Below are positions 41,166 to 53,261 of a stretch of 64,000 bases of DNA, one piece after another; the first letter of the stretch is position 1; each line of letters begins with the position of its first letter. A program made the translations under genes and the position numbers. This DNA comes from Pleurocapsa minor GSE-CHR-MK 17-07R (lineage in GTDB: Bacteria; Chloroflexota; Anaerolineae; Aggregatilineales; Phototrophicaceae). The notes beneath the pieces are model-generated. The model was not told the DNA's origin. It did not search any database and saw only the letters and a list, made by a program, of their open reading frames with translations. The stretch lies in contig JAHHHY010000011.1 of assembly GCA_019359125.1 (NCBI GenBank), positions 1 through 64,000 on the forward strand, in the 5' to 3' direction.

Positions 41166-41642
41166 ATGCCAACTTGGTGGGGAACCCCGCAGGCCGTATC
41201 ACCCCGTCTGCGGCTGGAGGTCGAGGCCATGCGTGCGACCTTCGGCAAGACATTTCAACTGCGCGTGAAGCCGCACGAGCTGCTGTACTGGGAAGGCACG
41301 GTCGAGATCAATCTGGCCACGCTGACCCGGCCAGAACACACGATCAAGATCGTGTATCCGGAGCATTACCCCAACAGCCCGGCGGAGGCCTATACCGTGC
41401 AGCCGCGGCTGGTGAGCAACAAGCATATGTTCCATGACGGGCAGTTGTGCCTGTTTAATCCGCGTGATGGCGAGCATTACGGCTGGAATCCAGCCAGCAG
41501 CACGGCCGTCACCGTGACGGCATGGGCCATTCAGTGGCTGTATGCCTACTACACCTACCGCGCCACGGGCACCTGGCCGGGCGTGGAGGAACGCGTGACC
41601 GGCCGCGACCGACCGGATCCAACCGGGGAGAATTGGCCATGA
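41166..41642 (+). CDS. E2/UBC-like ubiquitin-conjugating protein (bacterial)
   Basis: A 158-residue UBC-fold protein. The central E2 signature is readable: strands EGTVEINLATLTRPEHTIKI, the PxxYPxxPA turn VYPEHYPNSPAEAY, and the active-site loop HMFHDGQLCLFNP with candidate catalytic Cys95, followed by YGWNPASSTAVTVTAWAIQW as the crossover helix. The eukaryotic HPN triad is replaced by HMF. Bacterial E2-like proteins occur in operons with E1-like and JAB proteins, and the next two genes encode exactly these. The stop overlaps the next ATG (ATGA). Strong call for the fold; substrate unknown. Confidence 0.78.
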   Translation: MPTWWGTPQAVSPRLRLEVEAMRATFGKTFQLRVKPHELLYWEGTVEINLATLTRPEHTIKIVYPEHYPNSPAEAYTVQPRLVSNKHMFHDGQLCLFNPRDGEHYGWNPASSTAVTVTAWAIQWLYAYYTYRATGTWPGVEERVTGRDRPDPTGENWP

Positions 41643-42766
41643 GTGTGACAAAATCGCGGGGCGGCGTGCCCAACCTGATCGTGGCCGAGCGCGTGCTCAA
41701 GCGGATGCTTCAGGCCACACGGCAGCACATGCAGGACGAAACTGGCGAAGCGATGGTCGGGCTGGTGGTGCCGCCGTCGCAGGGCGCCTCGGTTGCATCT
41801 GTCTACATTCTCGACACCATCGCGCCGGATGCCTCGGCCGTGCGCCAGCAGTTCACCTTTCAGCAGGGCGATGCCCGCCAGGACGAGCTGATCTACTGGC
41901 TGCAGGAAAACTGGGATGTCGGGCGCAGGGAACAGCGGCCCACCGGCGTGCGCCGTATTTTCGGGGCGGGTGCGGGCGGTAAGTTTGACGTGCCGCTGCG
42001 CTTTCTGGGCGACTGGCACAAGCAGCCCGGCCATATGATTCAGCCCAGCGGCGGCGACCTGGACACCGCGCTCGACTGGATCCTCGACCCTGAGAACGAG
42101 ACCGACTTCCTGATCGCACCGATAGTCACGCTGGGCCATGCGGCCACCGTGGAGGCCAACAGCCCGATCTCCAATTTTGTCACTGTGCCGACCGGCAGTG
42201 GCGATGCCCTGCGCGCCGATTTCTGGTACATCGACCGCAAGACGCAGTTGTTCCAGCCGGTCACGCCGGCCGTGTATCCCGACGACCAGCTTCCCATCCT
42301 AAGCCCGTACCCGTGGCATATCCAGCAGGAAGCGCGCTATGAGGAAGAACTGGCCGCCTTCACCAAAGACGGGCTGTTTCAGGCCATGTCCTACTGGAAT
42401 GCCGACAGCGAGCTGCCGCTTGAATTGTGCTTTCTGACCGGGCGCGTGGGGGCAGACCACCTGCTGCTGCTGGTGACGCCCAACGATTATCCGGAGCATG
42501 CGCCGCAGGTGCGCATTTCGCCGTATATCCCGATGGCGTCCGGCGATGATATCTACGCGGTCTTTCGCCAGGCGTTCGAGCACAGCAAGGTGCTGCCGCT
42601 CGACCTGAAGTGGCACCCGAAAATGCTGCTGGTGGATGCGGTGCGCGCCGCTGAAGAGTCGCTTGTGCCAGCCAGCGCAAAGCCATCGCCCGCCAAACAG
42701 CCCGCGCCGGAGCACAAACCCGCTTCTGCCGACCTGACCGACAAAAAGACGGAGCACGGCTCATGA
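41639..42766 (+). CDS. JAB/JAMM-domain protein with C-terminal UBC-like half
   Basis: A 375-residue protein. Residues 1-160 form a Prok-JAB/MPN domain: Glu37 in TGEAMVGLVV, and the metal motif FLGDWHKQPGHMIQPSGGDL with His127, Ser137 and Asp140. The second His of the normal HxHP is Gln129, so zinc binding may be altered. Residues about 230-345 (LPLELCFLTGRVGADHLLLL, NDYPEHAPQVRISPY) look like a second, Cys-less UBC/RWD-type domain. A Pro/Ala-rich charged tail follows. JAB proteins of this type remove or mature ubiquitin-like modifiers. Starts four bases inside the E2 gene and ends four bases inside the E1 gene. Confidence 0.72.
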   Translation: MSVTKSRGGVPNLIVAERVLKRMLQATRQHMQDETGEAMVGLVVPPSQGASVASVYILDTIAPDASAVRQQFTFQQGDARQDELIYWLQENWDVGRREQRPTGVRRIFGAGAGGKFDVPLRFLGDWHKQPGHMIQPSGGDLDTALDWILDPENETDFLIAPIVTLGHAATVEANSPISNFVTVPTGSGDALRADFWYIDRKTQLFQPVTPAVYPDDQLPILSPYPWHIQQEARYEEELAAFTKDGLFQAMSYWNADSELPLELCFLTGRVGADHLLLLVTPNDYPEHAPQVRISPYIPMASGDDIYAVFRQAFEHSKVLPLDLKWHPKMLLVDAVRAAEESLVPASAKPSPAKQPAPEHKPASADLTDKKTEHGS

Positions 42767-43644
42767 GCTTTGACCGCGTGGAGCGCCTGATCGGGCGCAG
42801 CAATCTGGAAATTCTGGCCGGGCGGCGCGTGGGCATTATCGGGCTGGGCAGCGGCGGCAGCTTCGTCGCCCAAAGCCTGGCCATGAGCGGCGTTGGCCGC
42901 TTCGTGCTGATCGACGATGACGTGCTGGAGGCGGCCAATGTGGTGCGCCACGCCAACGACCTGCGCGATGTCGGCCGCCCGAAAGCCGAGGCCGTGGCCG
43001 ATGCCATCCGCCTGCGCAGCCCTGCTGCCGAAGTCGACGTGCGCGTGGGCCGCTTTGAGGCGTATCCCGATGCGCTGGACGGGCTGGATACGCTGGTGGT
43101 AGCTGTCGATGGCGAACTGACGAAATATGCCATCAACGAGGCCTGCCTGAAGCGCGGCCTGAAGGCGGTGTATGCCGGCGTGTATGCGCGCGGCGAGGGC
43201 GGCGATGTGTGCGTCATTCGGCCGCATGACGGCCCGTGCTATGCCTGCTGGGCCGAAGCACTCCGCGGCGAAGTGCTGGTCAGCCGCGATGCCGACGATG
43301 CGCTGGATTATGGCATGATTGGCGAGAATGGCACGCTGGAGGCCGAGCCCGGCCTGTGGCTGCATGTGGTGCGCGTGGCGGCGGCGCAGGCCGATATGAC
43401 GCTGGCGCTGCTGCTGGAAGGCACAACTGCGGCGCGGGCGTATCCGGCTAACAGCGTCATCATGGCCAACAGCGCGTTGGAAATCATCGAAGGCGAAATC
43501 ACCCCACCGTATTCGGCTGTATGGGTGGATGTGGCGCGTAATCCCGCCTGCCTGGTGTGTGGCGACGGCGCGCAGGCGCAGGAAGACATCTCGCTGGCAG
43601 ATTTGCTCGACAGCGATGATGGATCTTTTGTCGCAAATGGTTAA
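42763..43644 (+). CDS. E1/ThiF-MoeB-like adenylating protein
   Basis: A 293-residue Rossmann-like E1 domain. GIIGLGSGGSFVAQSL holds the glycine loop (27-32), LIDDDVLEAANVVRH the acidic ribose-binding residues and the N-x-x-R pair (Asn59, Arg62), GRPKAEAVADAI the conserved Lys74, and VVAVDGELTKYAINEAC the metal Asp116. Two CxxC pairs (Cys159/162 and Cys263/266) form the structural zinc site. No obvious separate catalytic-Cys domain is present. It would adenylate the C-terminus of a modifier and pass it to the E2 encoded upstream. Overlaps the JAB gene by four bases. Confidence 0.85.
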   Translation: MSFDRVERLIGRSNLEILAGRRVGIIGLGSGGSFVAQSLAMSGVGRFVLIDDDVLEAANVVRHANDLRDVGRPKAEAVADAIRLRSPAAEVDVRVGRFEAYPDALDGLDTLVVAVDGELTKYAINEACLKRGLKAVYAGVYARGEGGDVCVIRPHDGPCYACWAEALRGEVLVSRDADDALDYGMIGENGTLEAEPGLWLHVVRVAAAQADMTLALLLEGTTAARAYPANSVIMANSALEIIEGEITPPYSAVWVDVARNPACLVCGDGAQAQEDISLADLLDSDDGSFVANG

Positions 43645-43723: not shown

Positions 43724-44029
43724 ATGACCGACGAAAACGTGAATTCGACACCGACGCCGGGCGACCTGCCCGAAGCGGAAACAGCCAATAGCGCGAATGA
43801 GGGTTCGCCCTCTGCGGGTGCGCCGGAAAATGAGTATTCCGTCCGCTTGGAACGGCTGGGCGGCGAGCCCGCCCCGGCCATCACGCCGGAAGAATTTGCC
43901 CGCCTGCAAAAGGCCGGGCAGGTGCACATCGACGCGCGCGGACGCGTGCATGCTGCACGCCGTTCCGATGCTGAAGCGGGTGTGTCGCTGAAAAAGCGGC
44001 GCGCATGGTACACCCCGGCCCGCCAGTAA
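43724..44029 (+). CDS. Small acidic N-terminus/basic C-terminus protein next to E1
   Basis: A 101-residue protein. The first 45 residues are rich in Glu, Pro, Ser and Thr and look disordered; the middle AITPEEFARLQKAGQVHIDA may form a helix-strand unit; the end SLKKRRAWYTPARQ is basic. GAGGAAG precedes the ATG. There is no visible beta-grasp fold and no terminal di-glycine, so it is not an evident ubiquitin-like modifier, but its position 80 bases after the E1 gene makes it a candidate partner or target. Confidence 0.6.
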   Translation: MTDENVNSTPTPGDLPEAETANSANEGSPSAGAPENEYSVRLERLGGEPAPAITPEEFARLQKAGQVHIDARGRVHAARRSDAEAGVSLKKRRAWYTPARQ

Positions 44030-44059: not shown

Positions 44060-45244
44060 ATGAGCGAAGCCCTGACAGCACAGACGCTCGTGAACACATT
44101 GAAGCAGCGCGGCGAGCTGCACGACAGCCGCGTTGAGCAAGCCTTCCTGAAAGTGCCGCGCGCCGCTTTTCTGCCCGCCGACGCGCGCGCGCAGGCCTAT
44201 CACGACGCGCCGGTCGTCATCCGGCGCGACCCCGACGGAACCGTCGTCAGTACCTCCAGCCAGCCGGGTATGATGGCGCTCATGATCGAGCAGATGCGCC
44301 TGACGACCGGCATGAATATCCTGGAGATTGGCGCGGGATCCGGCTATAACGCCGCGATCATGAAGCATATCGTCGGGCAGTCTGGCCGCGTGACCAGCGT
44401 GGAATATGACCCGGTGATCGCCAGCACCGCGCAGGACAATTTACAACGCGCAGCGATGGGCGAAATCACGGTCGTCCATGCGGATGGCTCTGGCGGGTTT
44501 TCGCCCCGTGCCGCCTACGACCGCATCATCGCGACCGTGGGCGTGTATGACCTGCCACGCCACTGGGTGCGCCAGCTCAAGCCGCGTGGCCTGATCGTCG
44601 CGCCATTGTGGCTGGAAGGCTTCCAGTTCAGCGGTGCGTTCCAGCTTCAGCCGGACGGCAGCCTGTACAGTGAGCGCAGCCTGCCTTGCAGCTTCCTGCG
44701 CATGCGCGGCCCGTTCGCCGGCCCAAAGGTGGAGATGCGCCTCGGCTCTGGCGGCGCGATGCAGCTGTTGTCGTCGGGCGTGGCGGGCGGCCAGATCGAC
44801 CCGGCCATGCTGGCCTCAATGGGCAGCGACCAGAGCGAAGGCTTTATGGGCATTCGCCTGTCGCCGTGGGAAATTTCCACCCAACTGGTGCCGTATCTGC
44901 TGCTGGCGCTCAAGCATCCGTACTTCATGGCCAGCTTCAGCATCGCCGACGGCCAGCAGGTCTTCGGGCTGACCGGGCAGGGCTTTGCTGTGCTGTCGCG
45001 GGGCAGCGCCTGTTTCGTCCCGCTGAATGGCGGCGGCACCACGCTGACGCTGGGCGCGGCGGCCGCAGACCTGGCTTTGCAGGATGCCATCACGACCTGG
45101 GAGCGCGATGGCCGCCCCGGCGCCGAGCAACTGCGCCTGCGCCTGTCACCGCTGGCCTCCAGCGCGCCGCGCCGCCCGGATGACAATCCGCTGGCGATCG
45201 TCTCGCCCCGCATCGACCATGCCGTCGAGGCCTGGATGGAGTAG
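44060..45244 (+). CDS. Protein-L-isoaspartate O-methyltransferase-like protein with C-terminal extension
   Basis: A 394-residue protein. The first 200 residues are a PCMT-type methyltransferase: QAFLKVPRAAFLPADARAQA, SQPGMMALMIEQMRL, SAM motif MNILEIGAGSGYNAAIMKHI and AYDRIIATVGVYDLP. The remaining 190 residues are an extension not found in the standard ~210-residue repair enzyme; similar extended forms modify peptides or proteins in secondary pathways. It follows the small protein by 30 bases and overlaps the DUF5946 gene by one base, so it is likely part of the E2-JAB-E1 transcript. Confidence 0.78.
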   Translation: MSEALTAQTLVNTLKQRGELHDSRVEQAFLKVPRAAFLPADARAQAYHDAPVVIRRDPDGTVVSTSSQPGMMALMIEQMRLTTGMNILEIGAGSGYNAAIMKHIVGQSGRVTSVEYDPVIASTAQDNLQRAAMGEITVVHADGSGGFSPRAAYDRIIATVGVYDLPRHWVRQLKPRGLIVAPLWLEGFQFSGAFQLQPDGSLYSERSLPCSFLRMRGPFAGPKVEMRLGSGGAMQLLSSGVAGGQIDPAMLASMGSDQSEGFMGIRLSPWEISTQLVPYLLLALKHPYFMASFSIADGQQVFGLTGQGFAVLSRGSACFVPLNGGGTTLTLGAAAADLALQDAITTWERDGRPGAEQLRLRLSPLASSAPRRPDDNPLAIVSPRIDHAVEAWME

Positions 45245-45721: not shown

Positions 45722-46141
45722 TCAGCCTTCCGAAGCTTTGACGTTCACCTCAAATGCGCCCTGTGCGCGATAGAAGCACACATCAAACTCCATGAAGAAG
45801 TTCATTTGCCCGAAAATGACTGGTACATTTTCAGACTGTGTCCAGGCAAAGGCTAATCGGATGCCTGCCTCTTTGGTGATTTGCGGATGTGATGCCGTAG
45901 TTATCAACGCCCGCGCTTCAAATTGTCCCAAACTTCCGACCAGCGATACAGGAACTGTTTGGTCTGCCCATACAGCTCCGAGCGCTAATCCGACGCGATA
46001 AGGCAGGACGCTGACCGCCGCGCCGGTATCCAACAGCCCCACCACCTCGACCGATAGCCCATCCAATGACAAGTTCATCGGCAAACGTGGCATCAAACTC
46101 GTCGGTAGGCTATTCGCTGCGACATACGGAAAACGCGCCAC
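45722..46141 (-). CDS. Retropepsin-like aspartic protease domain protein
   Basis: A 139-residue protein with the retroviral-protease-type active-site motif GLLDTGAAVSVLP near residue 37, preceded by a hydrophobic strand (MNLSLDGLSVEVV) and followed by SLVGSLGQFEARAL and VIFGQMNFFMEFDV. Only one D-T-G is present, so a working enzyme would be a dimer. It begins at a GTG overlapping the stop of the upstream 75-residue gene by one base, forming a two-gene unit. Confidence 0.7.
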   Translation of the reverse strand: MARFPYVAANSLPTSLMPRLPMNLSLDGLSVEVVGLLDTGAAVSVLPYRVGLALGAVWADQTVPVSLVGSLGQFEARALITTASHPQITKEAGIRLAFAWTQSENVPVIFGQMNFFMEFDVCFYRAQGAFEVNVKASEG

Positions 46142-48406: not shown

Positions 48407-48544
48407 CCCGCCAAACAGGCGCATACTTATAGATAGGTGCTGACGCATCTGGCGATTCGGTCTGTTTCATTTCTCCCGTTTTTCCCGACACAGTTGAGGG
48501 GCGGGGGCCAGCGGCTGCCGATGAAAAAGCACACAGGGAACATC

Positions 48545-49258
48545 ATGCTGGATATTGCAGGGCTTAACGCGCAGTTTGAGCAGGAAGCGCCACAGGACAT
48601 TCTCGCGTGGGCAGCGGAGACGCTGGCCGACAGATTCGCGCTGGTGACCAGTTTTCAGCCCAGCGGCCTGGTGCTGACGCACATGCTCGGCCAGATCGCG
48701 CCGCACGCCCCGATCATCACGCTGGATACCGGCCTGTTGTTCCCGGAGACCTATGCGCTGATGGCGCAGTATGAGCGCGAATATGGCATCACGATTCAGC
48801 GCGTGTCGCCCGCCCAGACGGTGGCCGAACAGGCCGGGACGCACGGCGACGCGCTGTGGGCGCGTGACCCGGATGCCTGCTGCGGCCTGCGCAAAGTCGC
48901 GCCGCTGCGTCAGGCGCTCACCGGCTATGAGGCGTGGATTACCGGCGTGCGCCGCGACCAGAGCGCATCGCGCCGAAACACGCCGATTCTCGCCTGGGAC
49001 ACGCGCCACAACAATCTGAAGCTGGCCCCGCTGGCGGCCTGGACCGAAGACATGGTGTGGACGTATATCCACGCGTATGCGCTGCCGTATAACCTGCTGC
49101 ATGACCAGGGCTATGCCAGCATTGGCTGCCAGCCCTGCACCCGCGCGGTCGCCCCTGGCGAGGATAAACGCGCCGGTCGCTGGAGCGGCCAGAACAAGGT
49201 GGAGTGCGGCATCCACCTGCCAGAAGTCACGACACCCTCAGACGCCCGCACCGTCTGA
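48545..49258 (+). CDS. cysH: APS/PAPS reductase (assimilatory)
   Basis: A 237-residue PAPS-reductase-fold protein. The P-loop-like VTSFQPSGLVLTHML and ITLDTGLLFPETY bind the nucleotide. CysCys in DPDACCGLRKVAPLR, CxxC in IGCQPCTRA and the catalytic Cys in VECGIHLPE are present; the CC...CxxC set binds a [4Fe-4S] cluster as in adenylylsulfate reductases. ITGVRRDQSASR is the substrate loop. Produces sulfite for the upstream reductase. AGGGA before the ATG at 48545 decides the start, although in-frame upstream codons remain open. Confidence 0.9.
   Translation: MLDIAGLNAQFEQEAPQDILAWAAETLADRFALVTSFQPSGLVLTHMLGQIAPHAPIITLDTGLLFPETYALMAQYEREYGITIQRVSPAQTVAEQAGTHGDALWARDPDACCGLRKVAPLRQALTGYEAWITGVRRDQSASRRNTPILAWDTRHNNLKLAPLAAWTEDMVWTYIHAYALPYNLLHDQGYASIGCQPCTRAVAPGEDKRAGRWSGQNKVECGIHLPEVTTPSDARTV

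Positions 49259-52199: not shown

Positions 52200-53261
<1,062 letters not shown>

Follow-up and report, generated by a model that had tools for sequence, protein, structure and literature searches.

Operons combining E1, E2 and JAB genes are described as sporadically distributed among bacteria in the part of the Iyer 2006 article available to us (PMC1779556), which also describes the type 6d operons. According to the partial text of PMC10097602, one such operon that has been tested acts in phage defence, and the protein conjugated in CBASS is the CD-NTase, which has a conserved C-terminal Gly or Ala. For the Bil system, the excerpted text of PMC11354881 gives BilB as an E2 with a CEHH motif (Cys, Glu at +6, His at +8 and His at +13) and BilD as having a catalytic Cys417.

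A grouping of this kind was found in the window, the whole 64,000-nucleotide stretch of DNA that was analysed, with its genes on the plus strand in the order E2, JAB and E1. The gene for the UBC-like E2 (41166..41642; 158 aa) is followed by the JAB gene, encoding a JAMM-UEV protein (41639..42766; 375 aa), and by the gene for a ThiF/MoeB-like adenylating enzyme, the E1 (42763..43644; 293 aa). Both junctions are ATGA overlaps, and the three coupled genes of the original prediction are real and lie where it had placed them. A small fourth gene, here called g4 (43724..44029, plus strand; 101 aa), starts 79 bases past E1, and a gene for a PCMT-like methyltransferase with a C-terminal extension (44060..45244, plus strand; Pfam PCMT, 4.7e-48) starts 30 bases past g4. 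The E2-JAB-E1 grouping was present in 73 of the 80 loci in which E1 and JAMM-UEV were traced; the whole-genome counts given below cover E2 and g4. Individual loci showed some irregularities. In L042 (10318-12543) JAB and E1 form a single 741-aa open frame, either a natural fusion or an assembly frameshift, and in L029 (6283-6813) additional small ORFs separate JAB from E1, one of them DUF2283-like by eye. The full operon was also seen in a Bacteroidetes-labelled record (L072) whose tree partner, L056, is from Chloroflexi, probably indicating a mislabelled assembly.

The E2 matched the PADLOC E2 model PDLC00876 (E=2.8e-16) over residues 17-143, spanning the catalytic Cys, and in the PDB it matched UBE2L3 (7e-4). 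Both Cys95 (codon 41448-41450) and His87, eight residues upstream, were kept in 81/81 sequences (80 loci and the window), and Cys95 was present in 99% of a 121-sequence E2 set, so that the UBC-like protein with an active-site Cys95 expected from the original prediction passed the conservation check. The residues at +6, +8 and +13 from Cys95 are Asp101, Glu103 and Asn108. Homologues of the E2 carry the precomputed Pfam label PF26395; the Prok-E2_B profile gave no match in the genome, in a search that had no working control.

Structure was predicted for the JAB protein and for its C-terminal half. The N-terminal half has the MPN fold, in agreement with the JAB/JAMM protein first proposed for the operon, and the C-terminal half (residues 222-348; 42302..42682, plus strand) has a UBC fold without a catalytic Cys, that is, a UEV-like domain. 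The top two Foldseek matches were BRISC and BRCA1-A chains, and hhalign of the C-terminal half against the E2 gave a probability of 14.6%. The JAMM residues on the plus strand are Glu34 (41738-41740; placed by eye against the Chloroflexota cluster L095), His127 (42017-42019), Gln129 (42023-42025), Ser137 and Asp140. Gln129 stands where the JAMM motif has its second zinc-binding His (HxQ), and the full residue set of an active JAMM (Glu, HxH, Ser and Asp) is accordingly absent from the window protein. HxQ was found in 73 of 78 JAMM sequences and HxH in the remaining five (L026, L035, L041, L042 and L073), which form a sister, basal clade. In the main clade the His-to-Gln change would make the JAMM a weaker hydrolase, and the UEV half would hold the modifier or the E2 in the manner of eukaryotic UEVs. 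The extra UBC-like half had been suggested as a possibly new architecture; the JAB-UEV fusion holds and may not be unique, given a second Chloroflexota cluster, L098, in which a UEV/RWD-like stretch (by eye, without a Pfam flag) lies C-terminal to the JAB domain.

The E1 was assigned to the ThiF family (2.9e-30), with ThiF and MoeB as its nearest families, and it shows the glycine-rich nucleotide site, the N/R/K/D residues and the two CxxC pairs of the ThiF/MoeB superfamily, as anticipated for an E1-like adenylating enzyme. The zinc-type cysteines Cys159, Cys162, Cys263 and Cys266 were invariant in 74/74 E1s (73 loci and the window), as were Asp51, Asn59, Arg62, Lys74 and Asp116, and judging from these last five residues the enzyme would be active. 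Besides the zinc four, the sole common cysteine is Cys128 (65/74), a position at which ThiF and MoeB also have cysteine. A cysteine between Cys162 and Cys263, and so between the zinc pairs, was found in 0/74 E1s; this stretch is where the crossover cysteine of MoeB, Cys187, falls in the alignment. With no candidate thioester cysteine in the E1, transfer would run from the acyl-adenylate to the E2 directly. Combined with the loss of a JAMM metal ligand in the main clade, the same feature makes a non-conjugating function possible.

Conservation was compared across the four genes. For nine pairs, dN/dS was well below 1 in all of them (E2 0.00-0.12, JAB 0.05-0.21, E1 0.04-0.13, g4 core 0.005-0.058), the values being rough since several dS exceed 1. 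Among the window and 34 loci (35 sequences), the g4 core had a mean pairwise identity of 0.83, against 0.75 for the whole E2, 0.63 for E1 and 0.47 for JAB. The idea that nothing in the set is more conserved than the g4 core was rejected, since the E2 reached 0.87 in its best 56-residue stretch; the E1 reached 0.75. The conservation of the g4 core is thus about that of the E2 active-site region.

The g4 protein consists of an N-terminal tail that varies in length and sequence, and is likely disordered, and a conserved 56-residue core (residues 41-96, beginning RLERLGGEPAP and ending KKRRAWY; 43844..44011, plus strand). It had no match in Pfam, NCBIfam or PADLOC, and its homologues numbered 1449 at E<=1e-3. 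Residue statistics were taken from the 120 listed homologues among these, including the window's own copy. In this set 47 of the 56 core columns had one residue in at least 95% of sequences, and position 91 (codon 43994-43996) was Lys in 118 and Arg in two. The GG of RLERLGG was kept in 120/120, the basal clade, whose JAMM remains HxH, having Ser-Gly instead. The AWY motif was followed by 0-11 residues, and Ala or Gly stood at the C-terminus in 44/120. Two kinds of match were set aside as chance: a CodY PDB profile match (E=0.004) covering the tail plus the N-terminal half of the core, and three weak matches (E 1e-4 to 7e-4) from beyond the order, lying in frames of 317-453 aa. A role for g4 as a modifier without a beta-grasp fold, passed from the cysteine-less E1 straight to the E2, or as the source of a disordered Pup-like tag ending RLERLGG and freed by JAMM-UEV, was judged improbable, and the lack of a fixed g4 C-terminus counts against activation of g4's own C-terminus.

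Of the 30 best g4 loci (L132-L161), 25 had the PCMT gene following g4. In the basal-clade loci (L026, L035, L041, L042 and L073) E1 is followed by g4 with PCMT not adjoining, and by eye, among six loci of one large genus, PCMT follows g4 in two (L158 and L160) and a NUDIX-like gene does so in four (L149, L150, L157 and L161). The absence of PCMT next to g4 in the basal clade and the varying gene after g4 in the large genus suggest that the E1-g4 link is the older one, and PCMT was regarded as peripheral to the module.

The distribution of E2 and g4 was surveyed in 154 genomes of the order, 90 of them of good quality. The names of close hits (L005, P0165 and P0222) point to Aggregatilineales as the probable order, with P0144, another hit, bearing the name Phototrophicales. 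The E2 was found in 135/154 genomes and 87/90 good ones, the three good genomes without it all belonging to family f97, and g4 in 135/154 and 83/90, respectively. The E2 was single copy at this similarity level, with a second, distant match in three genomes. Both genes were present in 130 genomes, E2 only in five, g4 only in five and neither in 14, giving a Fisher p of 4e-12 that overstates independence because presence follows families; for the same reason the link between g4 and the module rests on few independent events. Families f94, f95 and f97 (12 genomes) had neither gene; the two occur in families f1, f91, f92, f93 and f96. The five g4-only genomes were at most 84% complete. As for the five E2-only genomes, judging from positions, three have contigs that apparently stop short of where g4 would be expected, and two (G497 and G513) have contigs that apparently stop within the usual g4 distance range for that genus. 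Where both genes shared a contig they lay on the same strand in 108/108 genomes, with g4 downstream of E2 by 2.0-3.4 kb in 82, by 11-36 kb in 25 and by 152 kb in one; the distance was 11-36 kb in the large genus where the contig was common to both. This wide spacing, like the PCMT neighbour of g4, counts against tying g4 to the module. In 22 genomes they were on different contigs. The E2 is thus a core gene of the order, co-inherited with g4.

In a phylum sample of 400 genomes the E2 was found in eight, two of them close, both from the window's family, and six distant (31-41% identity), and g4 in five, two close and three marginal. None of the 123 pattern matches in viral contigs was a relative. 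Two of the distant E2s (L096 6394-7895 and L097 6564-8065) lie next to a CD-NTase-like gene by eye, forming a minimal E2-only CBASS-like pair.

The original prediction had also linked the operon to Bil-type anti-phage operons. A Bil- or CBASS-like defence system would be consistent with the scores of the E2, JAB and E1 against PADLOC models and with the CD-NTase-like neighbours of these two distant E2s. The tested neighbours of the operon in the window (succinate dehydrogenase (SDH), GNAT, g4, PCMT, DUF5946, sulfite reductase and others) included no CD-NTase. Of ten neighbours searched with PADLOC, three were flagged, one for an unvalidated candidate and two for general folds (48437-49255, PAPS reductase; 52200-53258, ABC ATPase). 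The candidate, PDC-M52B, matched a 139-aa protein on the minus strand (45722-46141; 1.1e-46), which also speaks for defence; its gene overlaps a 75-aa ORF on the same strand. Ordinary neighbours such as succinate dehydrogenase, GNAT and PCMT, together with an E2 that is core and single copy in the order, point the other way, and a defence function was considered quite improbable. The Bil-type kinship is likewise not supported, given the lack of a BilA-like gene in the operon, a CEHH motif and an E1 crossover cysteine, the core status of the E2 in 87/90 good genomes and neighbours with one PADLOC candidate only. A ubiquitin-like conjugation system, the other part of that prediction, is still the reading that best fits the folds and the conserved residues.

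No ubiquitin-like modifier gene had been visible beside the operon, and this was upheld: among ORFs of 50-260 aa ending GG, GGx or GGxx within about 10 kb either side in the 80 loci and the window, no family occurred in more than four loci, and those that were shared had the appearance of shadow frames. In the whole genome, YukD had no match in a search whose control worked; ubiquitin (PF00240) also had none, a result that leaves absence unestablished as no control genome matched. Proteasome and HslV families had no match with a working control, making a proteasomal fate unlikely. The genome does encode another MoeB-type E1, and ThiS-family and other Pfam Prok-JAB (JAMM) matches occur in two proteins each. 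One protein joins a MoaD-type domain to a seeming MoaE (by eye). One ThiS-like protein, of 105 aa, ends AGGQ (L084 1447-1764, with L081 and L085; own genome C19:152288-160078) and within about 5 kb of it lie genes for a JAMM protein and for a MoeB-type E1 that seems, by eye, to end in a rhodanese-like region. It also adjoins a MetX-like gene (by eye) and resembles a sulfur carrier requiring C-terminal trimming. The second JAMM protein (L086 1477-2007; own genome C22, JAMM match 625652-625981) has a canonical YHSHP motif and a seeming C-terminal membrane helix, and adjoins a prepilin-peptidase-like gene (by eye).

These proteins bear on two further explanations. In a classical pathway, the E1 would activate a beta-grasp modifier encoded elsewhere and the E2 would attach it to many proteins, leaving g4 as just a regulator or a neighbour that binds RNA or ribosomes. 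The E1, E2 and JAMM families are all present for this, as are the two ThiS-family proteins; however, the AGGQ protein has its own MoeB-type E1 and JAMM nearby, YukD is missing, and the AGGQ protein is not co-distributed with the E2, being present in E2-less families f94 (2/2) and f97 (4/9) and absent from the E2-bearing genomes G401 and G411 (98-99% complete). On this distribution it was rejected as the modifier, and the classical pathway appears somewhat unlikely. Sulfur-carrier chemistry of the MoaD/ThiS/CysO kind would fit an E1 nearest to ThiF and MoeB, but the genome already has the other MoeB-type E1, the ThiS-family pair and the Prok-JAB pair, and an E2 is not known as a component of such pathways; this explanation was considered highly unlikely.

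Taken together, the core E2, its co-occurrence with g4, the JAMM Gln and the cysteine-less E1 argue against Bil- or CBASS-type defence and in favour of a conjugation pathway with vertical inheritance. We favour, with moderate confidence, the view that this is a housekeeping module for ubiquitin-type conjugation in one order of bacteria, with g4 as its likely dedicated client. In such a module the E1 would activate a protein C-terminus by adenylation and would likely pass it straight to Cys95 of the E2, and JAMM-UEV would bind or trim the product. The modifier would be encoded elsewhere in the genome, and g4 would be handled by the machinery, most likely as an acceptor via Lys91, the one lysine common to nearly all g4 copies, or as an adaptor.

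A literature search, which did not extend to many subscription papers, turned up no description of a module like this from the order. A module inherited across most of an order would represent a bacterial ubiquitin-type pathway in ordinary physiology. It raises the questions of whether an E1 without a thioester cysteine can feed an E2 and what role is played by a JAMM in which Gln is fixed in place of His, and it brings g4 forward as a conserved small protein of the module's neighbourhood.

The window module is a further variant of the bacterial E1-E2-JAMM kind and likely works as a conjugation system. Like BilABCD and the type 6d operons of Iyer 2006, it has separate E2, JAB and E1 genes within one operon. 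BilABCD differs in having the ubiquitin-like BilA gene, for which the window operon has no counterpart; the CEHH pattern of BilB is not found in the window E2, and BilD has a catalytic cysteine whereas window-type E1s do not (0/74). With type II CBASS Cap2-Cap3 it shares the lack of a ubiquitin gene, and its E2, E1 and JAB match the PADLOC E2, E1-E2 and JAB models, which we take to be the CBASS models. However, Cap2 is an E1-E2 whereas the window E1 and E2 are separate proteins, the window E1 lacks a thioester cysteine, and the JAMM carries a UEV domain and mostly Gln for His. Likewise, the C-terminal Gly/Ala conserved in CBASS CD-NTases is not conserved in g4, the tested neighbours of the operon do not show the combination of CD-NTase and effector, and the E2 is a core gene.

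Also comparable are the Chloroflexota JAB-E2-E1 clusters L095 (1727-10673) and L098 (2289-12995), a type found in 2/400 genomes of the phylum sample. Both have long JAB proteins, an E2 39-40% identical to that of the window with the same Cys motif, an E1 that, as in the window, has no Cys between the zinc pairs (by eye), and TPR proteins, without a visible ubiquitin gene, and may be sister systems. They differ in their partners (vWA in L095, SPFH and RWD-TPR in L098), in their HxH JAMM motifs and in having no g4 among the ORFs listed there. The L098 cluster has a second JAB besides RWD and SPFH. The Caldiarchaeum operon is Ub-E1-E2-RING-Rpn11, likewise a small E1-E2-JAMM module; the window operon has no ubiquitin or RING gene. 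Finally, BRCC36-BRCC45 of BRISC and BRCA1-A, in which BRCC45 is of UEV nature, pairs a JAMM with a non-catalytic UEV fold as the window protein does, but there the two are separate chains whereas here they are one polypeptide, a likeness of analogy rather than kinship.
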